Below are positions 10,039-16,602 of a stretch of DNA of 46,489 nucleotides, piece by piece; position 1 is the first letter of the stretch; each line of letters opens with the position of its first letter. Made by a program: the position numbers and the translations under genes. The DNA comes from Gammaproteobacteria bacterium. GTDB lineage: Bacteria; Pseudomonadota; Gammaproteobacteria; Eutrophobiales; Eutrophobiaceae. The notes beneath the pieces were generated by a model. The model worked only from the letters and a program-made list of their open reading frames with translations, did not search any database and was not told where the DNA came from. The stretch covers positions 1 through 46,489 of the forward strand of contig JACPSH010000049.1 in assembly GCA_016193395.1 (NCBI GenBank), given 5' to 3'.

Positions 10039-13000
10039 GTGTCGTCGCCCGATAGCGAGGTGCCCGATTTGAACGACCGCCAATCCGTCCTGATGGCCCT
10101 GCTGCTGGTCTCGAGCGCAGCCGTGCAGGCTGACATCTATTCCGCGCAGGAGGCACTCAACCGCGGCGACACGAAGGCCGCGATTGAGGAATTCCGGAGC
10201 CTGGCTGATCAGGGCGATGCGAAGGCGCAGGCGCAACTCGGGTACATCTATTACACCGGCGAAGGCGTTGCGCTGGATTATGCCGAAGCGGTCAAGTGGT
10301 ACCAGAAGGCGGCCGCGCAGGGCGATCGCGGTGCCCAGTACAACCTCGCGGTGGCCTACGCCTTCGGCGAGGGCGTGACGCAGGACTACTCGCAGGCGGC
10401 GCTTTGGTACCGGCGCGCCGCGGAACAGGGACACGTGGAGGCACAGTACAGCCTCGGACTCTCCTACTCCTATGGGGAAGGCGTGGCGCAGGATGCGGCG
10501 GAGGCTACCCAGTGGTTCAGGAAAGCCGCGGACCAGGGTTACGTGCGCGCGCAGGTTCATCTCGGCAGCAAGTACCACACCGGCGATGGCGTGCCGCAGG
10601 ACTACAAAGAAGCAGTCAAGTGGTACCGGATGGCGGCGGATCGTGGAGATGCCGTCGCGCAGTACAACCTGGGTTCCCTGTACCGGTCCGGGATGGGCGT
10701 GGAAAGGGATTACAACCAGGCCTTGCGCTGGTTCCGGATGGCGGCGGATCGCGGTTACGCGGCGGCCCAAAGCGAACTGGCGAGCCTCGAGCGGGCCATC
10801 GCCGCCCAGAGCCGACCTCGCCCCGCGCCCGCAGTCGCGCCCTCACCGGCGGTTTCGCAGTCCGCTCCGGCCAGCCGCCCTGCGCCCGCACCCGCCGCCG
10901 CGGAACCCAAACCCGCGCCGCAGGCGCAGGCATCCGCGGAGACTGGCGGACGCGACGCTTTGTTCAGCGTGGACAAATCCGATTTACTGAGCCTGGATTC
11001 GGGGGAGACACCGCCCGAAACGCAGACGGCGACGGCTGAGCCGGCGTCGGCTCCAGAGTCCGAGGCGACCACTGCGGACACCGAATCCACAAGCGAAACG
11101 GCTGCGATACCTGAAGACGCCGCCGCGGAGAGAAAGTCCGGCGGCGTACTCGGTTTTCTCGGTCGGCTGTTCCGGCCCGGTGCCGCGCCGCCGGAATCCA
11201 CGGCGGCGGCTGAACCCGCCGCGGCCGAAACGGCAACCGCAGAAACAGTCGAGCCCGAAGCCGCGGCTGTGGAACCCGAGTCTGCTGCAACCACCCCGAC
11301 TGAACCCGCGCAGAAAACCGAAGCCGAATCGGAACTCCTGGCAATGGAATCGCTCGAGCCATCGCTGCCGGATACGGAGGCGCCACCCGACGAAACGCTG
11401 CTGGCCGACAGCTCAGCACCCACCGGGGGCGTCGAGGAAGCCGCGCCTGCCACGGAACCGGGGCAAGCGGCGGAAGAGTCGAAGCCGGGATTCTTCAAGC
11501 GTCTCTTCTCGCGCAAGCGGGACGAGACCGAGCCGGCCGCGGAAGTTGCGGCGGCGGCGCCCCAGGAAGCGGAACTGGAAACCGCGATGGCCGAGACCGA
11601 GACCACCGGGACTGCGGCCGCGGAGGAAGCGGAGACCACGGTTGCAGCGGACGCGCCTGAGGAAACCACCAGCGCAGATACCGCCGCCGAAACTGCCGCA
11701 GAGGAGCCGGAGCGCGGATACTTCAGGCGCCTGTTCGGCAAGAAACAGGAGAGCGAAACGACGGCCGCAACCGAGACGAGCCAGCCCGAGGCCGCGGCCC
11801 GCGCGGAGGGCGCTGAATCCGGTACCGCCGTGACGCATGCGGCGGATATCAGCAATGGCACCCCGGAAGCGACGCCTCTGGAGTCTCCGGAGGAAAACAC
11901 CGCGGCCTCCGCGACGACACCTCCATCGACAGACGCCCTGGCCGTGGATCTCGGCGAAGCGGGCGCGCGTGCCGATCAAAATGTCCTCGACTCGACAGCC
12001 GAGGAACAGTCCGTCGAGGCGGCGCCCGAACCGGAGGCCCTGGACGACGAAGAAACCGTGGAGGAAGGCGAGAAGCAGGGATTCTTCAAGCGGCTGTTCA
12101 GCCGCCAGGAAAAGGCGGATACGCCTGCCGTCCCGGAAGAAATCCCGGCGGAGGAAACCGTTGCGATGGTTTCCCCGGAAGCCGGGGCCGGGGAATTTCG
12201 CGCCGATGCGGGCGAACTGGATGCGGCGCTCCGGGCGGTGCAGGCCGGCAAGTACGCGGACGCCTTTCCCGTCCTGCGGTCATTCGCGGCGCAGGGCGAT
12301 CCCGTCGCGCAATTCCGGGTCGGCACGCTCTACCACCAGGGACTGGGCGTTGAACGCGATCTGAGCGCGGCGGCGCAGTGGTACAGGAGATCGGCCGAAC
12401 AGGGCAATGCCGATGCGGAATACAGCCTCGCCAACATGTACCTGATGGGCGAGGGTCTGGAGCAGGATTACGGCAAGGCGCGCCAGTGGTACCAGCAGGC
12501 CGCGGCGCAGGGGCATGAAGCCGCGAAGCACAACCTGTCCAATCTCGACCGGATCAGCGATGACGCGGGCGAAGCGCCGGAGGCGGAACCCGTTGACGAT
12601 ACGGCCGCCGCGGAGACACCGGCGCAGAGTGCGGAACCGGAAACGGGTGATCGCGCGGATGAAGGTGATAAGCCGGGATTTTTCAGACGCTTGTTCAACC
12701 GGGACGCCGAGCCTCCGCAGGAAAGTTCAGTGGCCCCGGAAGCGGCGCCCGAAAGTGCTGCGGAACCGCAGGCTGAACCCGCGCCGACGGAGTCAGTGGA
12801 ACAGGAGGCCGCAGCAGAATCGCCTGCATCGGAATCCGCGCAGGCGGAACTGCCCGATGCCGAACCAGAAGAAGGCAAGAGCCGCGTCGGCAGATTCTTC
12901 GGCAGGCTGTTCGGCGACGACGAGGAAGAGAGTGATGCACAGCCTGATCAAGCCGCAGTCGCGGAGGCCGAAGCGGAGAGGGCCGCGGCATCGCCCGGGG

Positions 13001-13482
13001 AATCCAGCGTTGCAGCGATCGAGGAGGGCACGACAGGCGATACCGCCGAAAGCGCCTATGAGAAAGGTGTGGCCTATAGCGTGGGCGAAGGCGTGGAAAA
13101 GGATCCGGCCATGGCCTTGCAGTGGTACCTGGCGGCCGCAGAGATGGGCCACGCGGGAGCGCAGTACAAAGTGGGCGCCGCCTACGCGTACGGCGAGGGA
13201 ACGGCCAGGGACCCGGCGAAGGCCGTGGAGTGGTACCAGAAAGCGGCGGCACAGGGTTATGCCATCGCGCAGCGCAACCTGGGCGGCATGTACATGACCG
13301 GCGAGGGAGTGGAACAGAACAAGACCCTGGCGCTGGCCTGGTACAGCGTCCTGGCGGATGTGGGCAACGTCATGGACATCCGCCGCCGCGACACCTTGAT
13401 GCAGGAATTGAGCGAAAACGAAGTCGCGGAGGCCCAGTACCTTGCGGCAAGTCTGAAAGCCGAAATCCAGGCCGCGCACTGA
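10039..13482 (+). CDS. Large exported Sel1-repeat protein with six GFF-RLF motifs in acidic linkers
   Basis: Up to 1147 aa. Ten Sel1-type TPR-like repeats (pattern A-x-x-x-L-G-x-x-Y-x-x-G-x-G-V-x-x-D-x-x-x-A-x-x-W-Y-x-x-A-A-x-x-G) occur in three groups: five at about residues 60-250, two at 729-834 and three at 1002-1111. Between them are long Ala/Glu/Pro/Thr-rich, probably disordered linkers, each carrying short basic-aromatic motifs of the form G-F-F-K/R-R-L-F at about residues 368, 482, 559, 679, 878 and 949. The start is unclear: GTG 10039, GTG 10060 and TTG 10069 are in frame. TTG 10069 is preceded by GCGAGG and gives MNDRQSVLMALLLVSSAAVQA, a good signal peptide, so export to the periplasm is likely. 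Sel1 repeats usually scaffold protein-protein contacts. No enzymatic domain is visible. Confidence 0.85.
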   Translation: MSSPDSEVPDLNDRQSVLMALLLVSSAAVQADIYSAQEALNRGDTKAAIEEFRSLADQGDAKAQAQLGYIYYTGEGVALDYAEAVKWYQKAAAQGDRGAQYNLAVAYAFGEGVTQDYSQAALWYRRAAEQGHVEAQYSLGLSYSYGEGVAQDAAEATQWFRKAADQGYVRAQVHLGSKYHTGDGVPQDYKEAVKWYRMAADRGDAVAQYNLGSLYRSGMGVERDYNQALRWFRMAADRGYAAAQSELASLERAIAAQSRPRPAPAVAPSPAVSQSAPASRPAPAPAAAEPKPAPQAQASAETGGRDALFSVDKSDLLSLDSGETPPETQTATAEPASAPESEATTADTESTSETAAIPEDAAAERKSGGVLGFLGRLFRPGAAPPESTAAAEPAAAETATAETVEPEAAAVEPESAATTPTEPAQKTEAESELLAMESLEPSLPDTEAPPDETLLADSSAPTGGVEEAAPATEPGQAAEESKPGFFKRLFSRKRDETEPAAEVAAAAPQEAELETAMAETETTGTAAAEEAETTVAADAPEETTSADTAAETAAEEPERGYFRRLFGKKQESETTAATETSQPEAAARAEGAESGTAVTHAADISNGTPEATPLESPEENTAASATTPPSTDALAVDLGEAGARADQNVLDSTAEEQSVEAAPEPEALDDEETVEEGEKQGFFKRLFSRQEKADTPAVPEEIPAEETVAMVSPEAGAGEFRADAGELDAALRAVQAGKYADAFPVLRSFAAQGDPVAQFRVGTLYHQGLGVERDLSAAAQWYRRSAEQGNADAEYSLANMYLMGEGLEQDYGKARQWYQQAAAQGHEAAKHNLSNLDRISDDAGEAPEAEPVDDTAAAETPAQSAEPETGDRADEGDKPGFFRRLFNRDAEPPQESSVAPEAAPESAAEPQAEPAPTESVEQEAAAESPASESAQAELPDAEPEEGKSRVGRFFGRLFGDDEEESDAQPDQAAVAEAEAERAAASPGESSVAAIEEGTTGDTAESAYEKGVAYSVGEGVEKDPAMALQWYLAAAEMGHAGAQYKVGAAYAYGEGTARDPAKAVEWYQKAAAQGYAIAQRNLGGMYMTGEGVEQNKTLALAWYSVLADVGNVMDIRRRDTLMQELSENEVAEAQYLAASLKAEIQAAH

Positions 13483-13505
13483 CCGGCCGTTTGCCTTGAC
13501 CGGCC

Positions 13506-13525
13506 GGCCCCTGTAATTTGGGGCC
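13506..13525 (+). terminator. Hairpin between the Sel1-repeat gene and mlaF
   Basis: GGCCCC (13506-13511) and GGGGCC (13520-13525) pair around an 8-base loop. It lies 24 bp after the Sel1-gene stop and 20 bp before the mlaF start. There is no U-run, so a classical intrinsic terminator is doubtful; it may attenuate or protect mRNA. Confidence 0.3.
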
Positions 13526-13545
13526 TGTCCCCCTGCGCATTCGAC

Positions 13546-14361
13546 ATGCCGGAAACCGAACCCCATCAGGCGGCCATCGCCGTCCGCGATCTCAACAGCC
13601 ACTACGCCGACCGGCAGGTGCTGTTCGACATCAACCTGACCGTGCAAAGGCGGGAAATCGTGGCCGTCATGGGCCACAGCGGTTCCGGCAAGACAACCCT
13701 GTTCCGCCACCTCCTTGGGCTGAAGCCACCCACCTCCGGCCAGGTCGAACTGCTCGGGCGCGACCTCACGGAGGTGACGCGTCCGGAGTTGTTCGAATTA
13801 CGCAAGAAGATTGGCGTCGCGTTCCAGAACGGCGCGCTGTTCAGCTCGCTCAGCGTGCGCCAGAACGTCGAGCTTCCCCTGCGCGAGCACACGAAGCTCG
13901 ATGAGAACACCATCCGCATCATGACGCGCATGAAGCTCGAGTTCATGCGGCTCGCCGAATTCGAGAAATTCATGCCGGCGCAACTGTCCGGCGGCATGCT
14001 CAAGCGCGCGGGGCTGGCGCGGGCCGTCATCATGGATCCGCAACTGCTGTTCTTCGACGAGCCTTCCGCGGGCCTTGATCCGGTCACGTCCGCCGAGCTC
14101 GACCGGCTAATCCTGAAGCTGCGCGATGCCATGAACATGACCATCATCATCATCACCCATGAGCTGCACAGCGCCTTCAGCGTCGCCGATCGCATCATGG
14201 TGCTCGACCGCGGCCGGCAGCTCATGGTCGGCACGCGCGAGGAGGTGCGCGCGAGCACGGACCGGCGCATCGTCAACATGCTCGATCGCAAGCCGGCCGA
14301 CGATGACTTCAATCCCGACGATTATTTCAACCGGCTGACCAGCACGGTGCCGAAAACATGA
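13546..14361 (+). CDS. mlaF: Mla-type ABC transporter ATP-binding protein
   Basis: The 271-aa ATPase of the phospholipid transporter that maintains outer-membrane lipid asymmetry. Walker A is GHSGSGKTT, the Q-loop is VAFQNGALFSSLSV, the signature is QLSGGMLKRAGLARA, Walker B is LLFFDEPSAGLDP and the H-loop is IIITHEL. The GALFSSL segment after the Q-loop and the signature variant SGGMLKR are typical of MlaF rather than other importers. The stop overlaps mlaE by 4 bp, so FED form an operon. Confidence 0.93.
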   Translation: MPETEPHQAAIAVRDLNSHYADRQVLFDINLTVQRREIVAVMGHSGSGKTTLFRHLLGLKPPTSGQVELLGRDLTEVTRPELFELRKKIGVAFQNGALFSSLSVRQNVELPLREHTKLDENTIRIMTRMKLEFMRLAEFEKFMPAQLSGGMLKRAGLARAVIMDPQLLFFDEPSAGLDPVTSAELDRLILKLRDAMNMTIIIITHELHSAFSVADRIMVLDRGRQLMVGTREEVRASTDRRIVNMLDRKPADDDFNPDDYFNRLTSTVPKT

Positions 14362-15149
14362 AGGCCGTGGCCCGTGCCATGAGCTTCGGCTGGCTCGCGG
14401 ACTTTCTGGAACGGCTCGGCCGATCGGGGGTGTTCCTTGCCGAGGGACTCTGGCGCCTCGCGACGCCGCCTTACCGGCTCCATCCCATTGCCAGGCAGAT
14501 CCAATTTATCGGCGCCCGATCGTTGCTGGTGATTGTCGTCGCCGGAACGTTCGTGGGCATGGTCGTGGCCCTGCAGTTCTACGACACGCTGGTGCGTTTC
14601 GGCTCGGTCGGCCTGCTGGGCGCCGCGGTCGGCCTCAGCCTGCTCCGGGAACTCGGGCCGGTGCTGACGGCCCTCGTCGTCATCGGCCGCGCCGGCTCCG
14701 CAATCTGTGCCGAGATCAGCATCATGCGCAACGAACAGCAGATTGACTCCCTGGAATGCATGGCCGTCGACCCGCTCCGATACCTGATTGCCCCGCGCTT
14801 CGCGGCGGCCCTGATCTCGGTACCGCTGCTCACCTGCATCTTCATCACGGTGGGGATCTGGGGCGGCTACCTGGTCGGCGTCATCCTGTTCGGCGTCAGC
14901 CCGGGTTCCTACCTGGGCGGCATGTATGACGCCGTCAACAGAGGTGATCTCGTCATGGGCGGCGCGAAAGCGCTGGTCTTTGCGGTGCTGTTCATCTGGA
15001 TCGCGGCCTGCAAGGGATACTACCTGCATCTCGATCCGGCCGGTGCGGCGGGCAGCGAAGGCGTCAGCCGCGTCACCACCGAGGCGGTGGTGCTGTCTTC
15101 GATCGCGGTGTTGTGCAGCGACTACCTCGTCAGTGCCATCATCCTCTGA
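14358..15149 (+). CDS. mlaE: Mla-type ABC transporter permease
   Basis: The 263-aa permease of the MlaFEDB complex has the MlaE-family core: an N-terminal amphipathic region, then IVVAGTFVGMVVALQ, a central LLRELGPVLTALVVIGRAGS with the conserved E-L-G-P-V-L-T-A-L loop, and MRNEQQIDSLECMAVDP, the cytoplasmic coupling segment. Five to six hydrophobic helices follow the usual pattern. It overlaps mlaF by 4 bp and precedes mlaD by 8 bp. Confidence 0.93.
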   Translation: MKAVARAMSFGWLADFLERLGRSGVFLAEGLWRLATPPYRLHPIARQIQFIGARSLLVIVVAGTFVGMVVALQFYDTLVRFGSVGLLGAAVGLSLLRELGPVLTALVVIGRAGSAICAEISIMRNEQQIDSLECMAVDPLRYLIAPRFAAALISVPLLTCIFITVGIWGGYLVGVILFGVSPGSYLGGMYDAVNRGDLVMGGAKALVFAVLFIWIAACKGYYLHLDPAGAAGSEGVSRVTTEAVVLSSIAVLCSDYLVSAIIL

Positions 15150-15157
15150 GGGAAATT

Positions 15158-15616
15158 ATGGAAGACACACGATCAAAGACTGCAATGGCCGTTGGCCTGT
15201 TCATGATCATCGGCCTGTTCTGCGTGGCGTATCTGGCGGTCCGCCCCGGCGATCTGAACGTGTATCCGCGCAAGCAATACCAGGTGACCGCGCGCTTCAC
15301 CTCGGCTTCCGGACTGCGGGAGGGAGCTTACGTGGAGGCGGGCGGGGTGCGCGTCGGCAGCGTAGTCCGGATCCGGTTCGATCCGGAAAAGTATGCGGCC
15401 GAAGTGACCCTGGCCGTCGACGAAAATGTCCCCATTTCCAAAGATGCCGTGGCGTCCATCCGCACCGCCGGCATCATCGGCGACAAGTTCGTGAAGATTA
15501 CTCCGGGCGGCGCCGAGGAAAATCTTGCCGACGGCATGGCCATCCGCGAAACCGAGCCCTCGATCAATCTCGAGGAGCTGATCAGCAAGTACATCTTCGA
15601 GGGCGGAAAGAATTAA
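15158..15616 (+). CDS. mlaD: Mla-type MCE-domain membrane protein
   Basis: The 152-aa protein has one N-terminal transmembrane helix (about residues 8-28, MAVGLFMIIGLFCVAYLAV) and one MCE domain (about residues 38-118), with the family motifs ASGLREGAYVEAGGVRVGSV and RTAGIIGDKFVKITPGG. MlaD forms a hexameric ring that passes phospholipid between MlaE and periplasmic MlaC. The start at 15158 follows GAGGGAA; an in-frame start at 15113 lies inside mlaE. Downstream there is a terminator-like hairpin instead of mlaC. Confidence 0.93.
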   Translation: MEDTRSKTAMAVGLFMIIGLFCVAYLAVRPGDLNVYPRKQYQVTARFTSASGLREGAYVEAGGVRVGSVVRIRFDPEKYAAEVTLAVDENVPISKDAVASIRTAGIIGDKFVKITPGGAEENLADGMAIRETEPSINLEELISKYIFEGGKN

Positions 15617-15672: not shown

Positions 15673-16314
15673 CTAATTACCCTGCACCGTTCCGCCCGCC
15701 GGCGCCGGTCCTGCATCGGCGGGATGTTCCTGCTTGTATTTCTCGATGCGCCGCTGGATGTCCGCGAGCAGGCCGTCCATGCCCTCGTTGTTCGCGATCG
15801 CGGCAAAGGTGCTGCGGTAATTGGCAACCAGGCTGACGCCCTCCACCACGACGTCGTAGGCATACCACTGGCCGTCGTTGTTCTTCAGCTTGTAGTTCAC
15901 GGGGATCACGGTGGAATCCGTGACGATCTCGGTAGCCACCACGGCACGGTCGCCGTCAATCACCTCGCTCTTGTAGACAATCTGCTGACCCGTGTACGCC
16001 TCGATCTTCGAGCGGTAGGTCTCCGCGATGTACTGCGAGAAGAAACGGATAAACTGCTCGCGCTCCTCCGGCGTCGCGCGCTTCCACTCCGTCGCCAGGA
16101 CACTCTGCGACATGCTGCGGAAGTCGAATCCCTCGTCGATGATGACCGAAATCCTCTGCCAGCGGGCATCGCGGCTGATGGATTCGTCCTGCACGATGGC
16201 GACGACGCGGTCGATGGAATCGCGCACGCGGCCCATGGGCGTGGAGTAATCCGCGGCGTGCGCCGCGCACGCGGCAAGCAGCATCAGGGGCACCGTCAAC
16301 AGGCGCGATTTCAC
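15673..16314 (-). CDS. mlaC: MlaC-like periplasmic phospholipid-binding protein
   Basis: The Tgt2/MlaC-family protein ferries phospholipid between the outer-membrane and inner-membrane Mla complexes. From the GTG at 16314 it has a signal peptide (VKSRLLTVPLMLLAACAAHA) and about 190 mature residues. Family features are the MGRVRDSIDRVVAIV start, RISVIIDEGFDFRSMSQSVL, EREQFIRFFSQYIAETYRSK, and KLKNNDGQWYAYDVVVEGVS followed by LVANYRSTF. Upstream in-frame sequence to 16383 is not signal-peptide-like. It is encoded convergently to mlaFED, whereas in E. coli mlaC follows mlaD directly. No STAS-domain mlaB is seen. Confidence 0.88.
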   Translation of the reverse strand: MKSRLLTVPLMLLAACAAHAADYSTPMGRVRDSIDRVVAIVQDESISRDARWQRISVIIDEGFDFRSMSQSVLATEWKRATPEEREQFIRFFSQYIAETYRSKIEAYTGQQIVYKSEVIDGDRAVVATEIVTDSTVIPVNYKLKNNDGQWYAYDVVVEGVSLVANYRSTFAAIANNEGMDGLLADIQRRIEKYKQEHPADAGPAPAGGTVQGN

Positions 16315-16602
16315 AGGGATCCGGGTTCTGGGTGGGTTCGCGAGCAGGCAGCCGCATCTTAACGCCCGGTGTTGCAAAGCCAAAGGGTGTAGCCAGATGG
16401 CGACAATTCCCAGGCCTGCACTGGCCTTCGAACCCGTTCGAGCAAGCTAAACGATCAATCTGGATATGAATGTAACTATTTGAATATGCAATATTTATAA
16501 ACATGACCTTCACACTCTACCTTAGCCGAATCCAGGGTTAGGGGGGTCGGCATGGGAATTGCTCCTCTCCCCGTGACAGAGCGAGAACACGGGAGACGAA
16601 CC

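Follow-up and report, generated by a model that had tools for sequence, protein, structure and literature searches.

Amphipathic membrane-targeting helices are known mainly at the cytoplasmic face of the inner membrane, where they usually occur as a single copy. MinD, a cytoplasmic ATPase that binds as a dimer, carries a single such helix at its C-terminus, and the helices of RNase E and FtsY, less similar in sequence to the motif described here, are short amphipathic inner-membrane anchors of cytoplasmic location. Sel1 solenoids are a shared feature of Sel1-like repeat proteins (PF08238), such as SEL1L, EnhC, LpnE, MotX and AlgK. It has been shown that such helices attach cytoplasmic proteins to the membrane, two MreB helices being reported as stronger than one (PMC6158289), and that a different protein fused to tandem copies of the E. 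coli MinD tag KGFLKRLFGG becomes tethered to the membrane (PMC5471200). The role proposed below for a giant Sel1-repeat protein shares with the Mla system and the Veillonella trans-envelope MlaD (PMC10665443) the idea of a connection that spans the periplasm. The parts of this protein's locus (Sel1 repeats, MinD-type helices, mla genes) are known, while their combination, the motif copy number and the exported site appear to be undescribed in the openly licensed literature searched. There, the exact motif strings turned up solely as the MinD tag, and we found no relevant paper in which Sel1 proteins are connected with MlaD or with lipid asymmetry.

The gene lies in a contig of 46,489 nucleotides, the whole of which is referred to here as the window. 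Its reading frame (10039-13482, forward strand) is open over 1147 codons from a GTG at 10039. The TTG at 10069 is more likely to be the start codon, since it is preceded by a gcgagg stretch and the resulting signal peptide aligns with those of the orthologues; the product (10069..13482) would then have 1137 amino acids. The predicted signal peptide LNDRQSVLMALLLVSSAAVQA (10069..10131, forward strand), with likely cleavage before D, was aligned with the orthologue N-termini, and LNDRQSVLMALLLVSSAAVQA-D matches signal peptides such as MKRSLILILTLTTLCPLVFA-D. Complete orthologue N-termini have a hydrophobic stretch and a small-residue site before D or G, which was judged to be a signal peptide by eye from the alignment. 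From these N-terminal signal peptides the protein is predicted to be exported to the periplasm, the site that a sequence-only reading of this DNA had proposed.

A Pfam search of the protein gave ten Sel1 matches (PF08238, E 1.5e-96, 313.9 bits versus a cut-off of 30.7) and no other domain above cut-off, and its strongest PDB match was 6ok3, a 'Sel1 repeat protein' (E 3e-106). An AlphaFold2 model built on an alignment of 24 sequences contains three alpha solenoids, with pLDDT values mostly above 90, all encoded on the forward strand: solenoid A (residues 23-248; 10135..10812), 57-75% identical in orthologues, solenoid B (residues 714-832; 12208..12564), and solenoid C (residues 993-1136; 13045..13476), which served as the probe in the orthologue search. 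They are separated by linker 1 (10813..12207), which holds motifs 1-4, and linker 2 (12565..13044), which holds motifs 5 and 6. Both linkers are predicted to be disordered, with pLDDT values mostly below 50, and aspartate plus glutamate make up 23% of their residues.

All six GFFxRLF-type motifs named in the sequence-only reading are present in the linkers, again on the forward strand. Motif 1 (VLGFLGRLFRPG, 11146-11181) is a longer form, hydrophobic from V. Motif 2 (KPGFFKRLFSRK, 11482-11517), where pLDDT rises locally, and motif 4 (KQGFFKRLFSRQ, 12073-12108), with its call at residues 673-676, carry the only helix calls made by AlphaFold2 in the linkers. The remaining three are motifs 3 (RGYFRRLFGKKQ, 11713-11748), 5 (KPGFFRRLFNRD, 12670-12705) and 6 (VGRFFGRLFGDD, 12886-12921). 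Pfam, AlphaFold2 and the motif coordinates thus bear out the three Sel1 groups, the acidic linkers and the six motifs described previously.

The motif is not a chance feature. The linkers of the window protein contain five copies of its strict form, G[FYL][FLIRY]x[RK][LIFM]F, versus a mean of 0.000 in 2000 linker shuffles. When a corresponding DNA pattern was run over the 2.7-Mb genome, six matches were obtained: four fell in the Sel1 gene, a fifth within a methyltransferase and the sixth in the C-terminal tail of BamE, which is acidic (REGFFSKLFNSLPFVGED). The reversed control pattern gave none. With a position-specific profile, from whose training the tested genome was always left out, 31 orthologues gave 3.61 matches per protein, including in each of G012 and G024 one counted match that overlaps its neighbour, versus 0.018 per shuffled protein. 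Homologues lacking the motif or showing it only once had been named as grounds against the earlier reading; the profile found at least one copy in 29 of the 31 orthologues and at least two in 26, and on this point the reading was not refuted. The two proteins lacking a profile match are those of G066 and G073, the latter of which carries a longer variant of the motif. Among 77 control Sel1 proteins from other bacteria, the profile gave one spurious match. Three further Sel1 proteins of the same genome (G000:C4, C50 and C56; 484-639 amino acids) also lack it. These results rule out a general Sel1 feature: solenoids are shared by Sel1-like proteins, whereas the motif belongs to one orthologue group in a single order.

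A search with a profile built from the C-terminal solenoid gave orthologues in 42 of the 53 genomes that represent one uncultured order of the gammaproteobacteria. About 365 genomes sampled from the rest of the class yielded none, and a 215-aa frame in G035 came closest. Five orthologues with named records (L153-L157) all come from uncultured Gammaproteobacteria. In a comparison that the sequence-only reading had proposed, the motif count was seen to vary between relatives, from 0 to 7 copies per orthologue, and three solenoids occur together with 2 to 7 motifs. Its suggestion of expansion by internal duplication also gained support: tandem 201-nt units in L049 are 83% alike and represent a direct duplication, and the copies in the window, 61-76% alike over 49 nt, show a weaker trace of the same. 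In L048, no repeat family emerged at the DNA level, though the protein motif recurs there every 94 residues. Mean column identity over the whole alignment was 28%, and the linker is hardly alignable between genera.

The earlier reading had likened the motifs to the membrane-binding helix of FtsY. Since moment tests on single peptides were weak (the window motifs reached 0.07-0.14 of permutations), a pooled, spacing-free test was adopted, in which aromatic-hydrophobic clusters were gathered without fixed spacing, so that the search does not build in the answer. The 12,727 linker residues contained 117 such clusters, and in 92 cases a glycine immediately precedes the cluster. Compared with permuted copies, the clusters had a higher mean hydrophobic moment at 80-100 degrees (z 11-17) and a lower one at 160-180 degrees, which is the signature of an amphipathic alpha helix. 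A variant three residues longer (GFFSKLGKIF, GFFSAIGxFF, GGFFSAIGNFF) keeps its hydrophobic residues on one helix face, and the hydrophobic positions accept F, L, I, V, W and M. The helical character proposed earlier was therefore retained. The basic residues, however, are not conserved, the motif of genus g3 being GGFFSAIGxFFSG, and the absence of basic residues in this genus weakens the analogy with binding to anionic lipid.

As judged by sequence, the closest match of the motif is the membrane-targeting helix of MinD and not that of FtsY. The motif conforms to the MinD-type pattern G-F-[FL]-x-[RK]-L-F with helical amphipathicity, and the E. coli tag KGFLKRLFGG, which is almost identical to it in residues and in helix face, scores 26.2 with the Sel1 motif profile, the window motifs scoring 23.7-35.6. 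MinD proteins from genomes of the same class end in YQKKGFFGRLFGS (G025), TKKGFLKRLFNKE and TKKGFLKRLFNKEKDTSVV (G028) and EKKGLFNRLFAGART (G031); the G025 protein finishes with KKGFFGRLFGS, and motif copies in G021 and G045 Sel1 orthologues repeat KKGFFGRLFG letter for letter. The FtsY helix is also short and amphipathic and attaches a soluble protein to the inner membrane (PMC6158289), like the role predicted for the Sel1 motif, but MinD fits better, so that FtsY was discarded as the closest relative. Pfam found no SRP GTPase NG domain in the Sel1 protein. In contrast to MinD, the Sel1 protein carries its 0-7 copies inside linkers, is predicted to be exported and has no ParA/MinD ATPase domain (Pfam). 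The helices of MinD, FtsY and RNase E act on the cytoplasmic side, and a periplasmic use in the Sel1 protein would be an extension of this. An origin by fusion with a MinD-type gene was rejected, as the ATPase domain is missing and MinD was not found above the TIGR01968 cut-off in 16 examined genomes of the order. Three genomes of the same class have MinD, and the Min system may be absent from the order, as far as the 16 genomes indicate.

In the window, the Sel1 gene stands first on the forward strand before mlaF (13546..14361, ABC ATPase of the phospholipid transporter, identified by Pfam, a conserved neighbour lying 63 nt downstream), mlaE (14358..15149, permease, PF02405, E 1.2e-68) and mlaD (15113..15616, MCE protein of the short type, PF02470, E 1.2e-21). 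The cluster is met by a convergent mlaC on the reverse strand (15673..16383, PF05494, E 2.8e-45), and relatives are arranged alike. Of 30 genomes having both genes, 27 encode MlaE immediately after the Sel1 protein, without a change of contig or strand; two of the three exceptions (G020, G070) break at contig ends, and G011 is a true one. At 27 loci with an adjacent mlaF, four of which are second copies from the same genome, 51-241 nt separate the end of the C-terminal match from mlaF. Twelve genomes (G009, G014, G017, G022, G041, G046, G048, G059-G062, G073) keep the Sel1 protein without any MlaE, and therefore it is not an obligate part of the Mla system; several genomes have MlaE without the Sel1 protein. 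No domain of an Mla component (A-F) was found in the protein. It differs in this from the Mla system and the Veillonella MlaD, since it is no homologue of their components, and the local MlaD is of the short type and accompanied by MlaC.

Some variation was seen around this arrangement. In genus g13 (L043 in G024, L045 in G012), mlaE follows the Sel1 gene and no mlaF was detected between them, L043 having mlaE, mlaD and mlaC. At L050 and L051 a gene for a PEP-mutase-like lyase lies upstream of the Sel1 gene, and in the reduced genomes of genus g17 (G042, G049; L283, L287) the lyase is directly beside mlaFED and the Sel1 gene was not found. Scans for promoters and terminators gave nothing above chance; between the Sel1 gene and mlaF (13482-13546) there is a GC-rich hairpin of -25 kcal/mol (z -1.9) with no T run.

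BamE, which like the mla context had gone unnoticed in the earlier reading, was the second carrier of the motif. Proteins of this family in the order have one conserved GFF-type amphipathic motif in the periplasmic C-terminal tail, e.g., GFFSKLFNSLPFVGED and GFFGRLFDKINPLDDE; in the genome of the window it is located at G000:C26:5074-5094 on the reverse strand (loci L101 and L104; relatives L103-L131). At the profile threshold it was recovered in 20 of 30 BamE loci, in a similar position C-terminal to the BamE domain. It is kept in genomes without the giant Sel1 protein (G042, G016), and in genus g3, where the Sel1 motif has become GGFFSAIGxFF, BamE still has GFFGRLLD. The existence of many other carriers was discounted: except for BamE and MinD, the matches examined in 26 genomes were mostly reading-frame noise or folded proteins, and among the pattern matches examined an exported acidic tail with the motif was seen only in BamE. 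Both acidic disordered places found to hold the motif, the Sel1 linkers and the BamE tail, are thus in exported proteins.

We consider the chances about even that the Sel1 protein is exported and acts as a multivalent tether or scaffold at the membrane, with a link to phospholipid traffic. The export signal, solenoids, disorder, amphipathic motif and mla linkage come from the sequence analysis; membrane binding, a partner and bridging are what we infer. In such a tether, the three solenoids would serve as protein-binding modules, strung along flexible acidic linkers that total about 620 residues. Each motif helix would fold on the membrane and bind weakly, and several would jointly bind strongly. 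The acidic linker would be repelled by anionic lipid and stay off the bilayer, so that contact would be limited to the motifs. The chain could form a strap along one membrane, on the outer leaflet of the inner or the inner leaflet of the outer membrane, or could touch both, and the solenoids would gather envelope proteins. With the gene at the head of the mlaF-mlaE-mlaD cluster, the likeliest clients would be the shuttle and the phospholipid transporter that it serves. Much more tentatively, we speculate that a flexible strap touches both membranes via repeated MinD-type helices and holds the Mla transporter and shuttle at a contact site. If true, this would give bacteria an equivalent of the tethers at membrane contact sites, with a disordered chain in place of a rigid bridge. 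With up to seven motif copies in an exported protein encoded ahead of the phospholipid transporter, avidity might keep an envelope protein at a membrane even though it has neither a transmembrane segment nor a lipid anchor. The question of how the Mla components come together across the periplasm would thereby gain a part that can be tested.

A docking role for the motif has also to be weighed, in which it would act as a short linear motif that recruits a single folded protein of the periplasm, belonging to Mla, BAM or some other envelope machine. The repeats would gather many copies of this partner, and the BamE copy would be recognized by the same receptor. Its occurrence in both the Sel1 protein and the BamE tails fits this, as does its repetition in disordered linkers, which is typical of docking sites. 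We nevertheless regard such a role as doubtful, since the tolerance for six different hydrophobic residues and a lengthening by three residues that preserves just the helix face speak against it. A common receptor would further demand that the Sel1 and BamE motifs co-vary, which they do not in genus g3. Given this divergence and the persistence of the BamE motif in genomes without the Sel1 protein, a shared physical task, namely membrane contact, fits the sequences of both proteins better than a common receptor.

Since motifs and solenoids sit in one chain, and Sel1 and TPR-like grooves commonly bind peptides, the motifs might instead bind the solenoids of their own or a neighbouring molecule and give rise to a self-assembling periplasmic polymer or condensate. 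This seems unlikely to us: the AlphaFold2 model leaves the motifs in low-confidence linker with no confident docking, and the numbers of solenoids (three) and motifs (2 to 7) do not match. Neutral drift, in which linkers grow by slippage and duplication and carry along a motif without function, would account for the tandem units of L049 and the varying copy number. It is, however, hard to reconcile with a motif kept in 29 of 31 orthologues while the surrounding linker diverges, a pattern that indicates selection, and we hold it to be highly improbable.

Two further features were noted. In G026 (L107), the tail of a BamE from another family contains three amphipathic repeats, all of them weak: GLIDDIKDTLGM, GLLDKVKDTLSS and GLIDRIKSGIGL. 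In the Sel1 protein, a second linear motif, approximately [LM]F[ST]V[DE]x[SK]DLL[ST]LD, follows solenoid A (10960-10998 in the window) and is present in 12 of the 31 orthologues.
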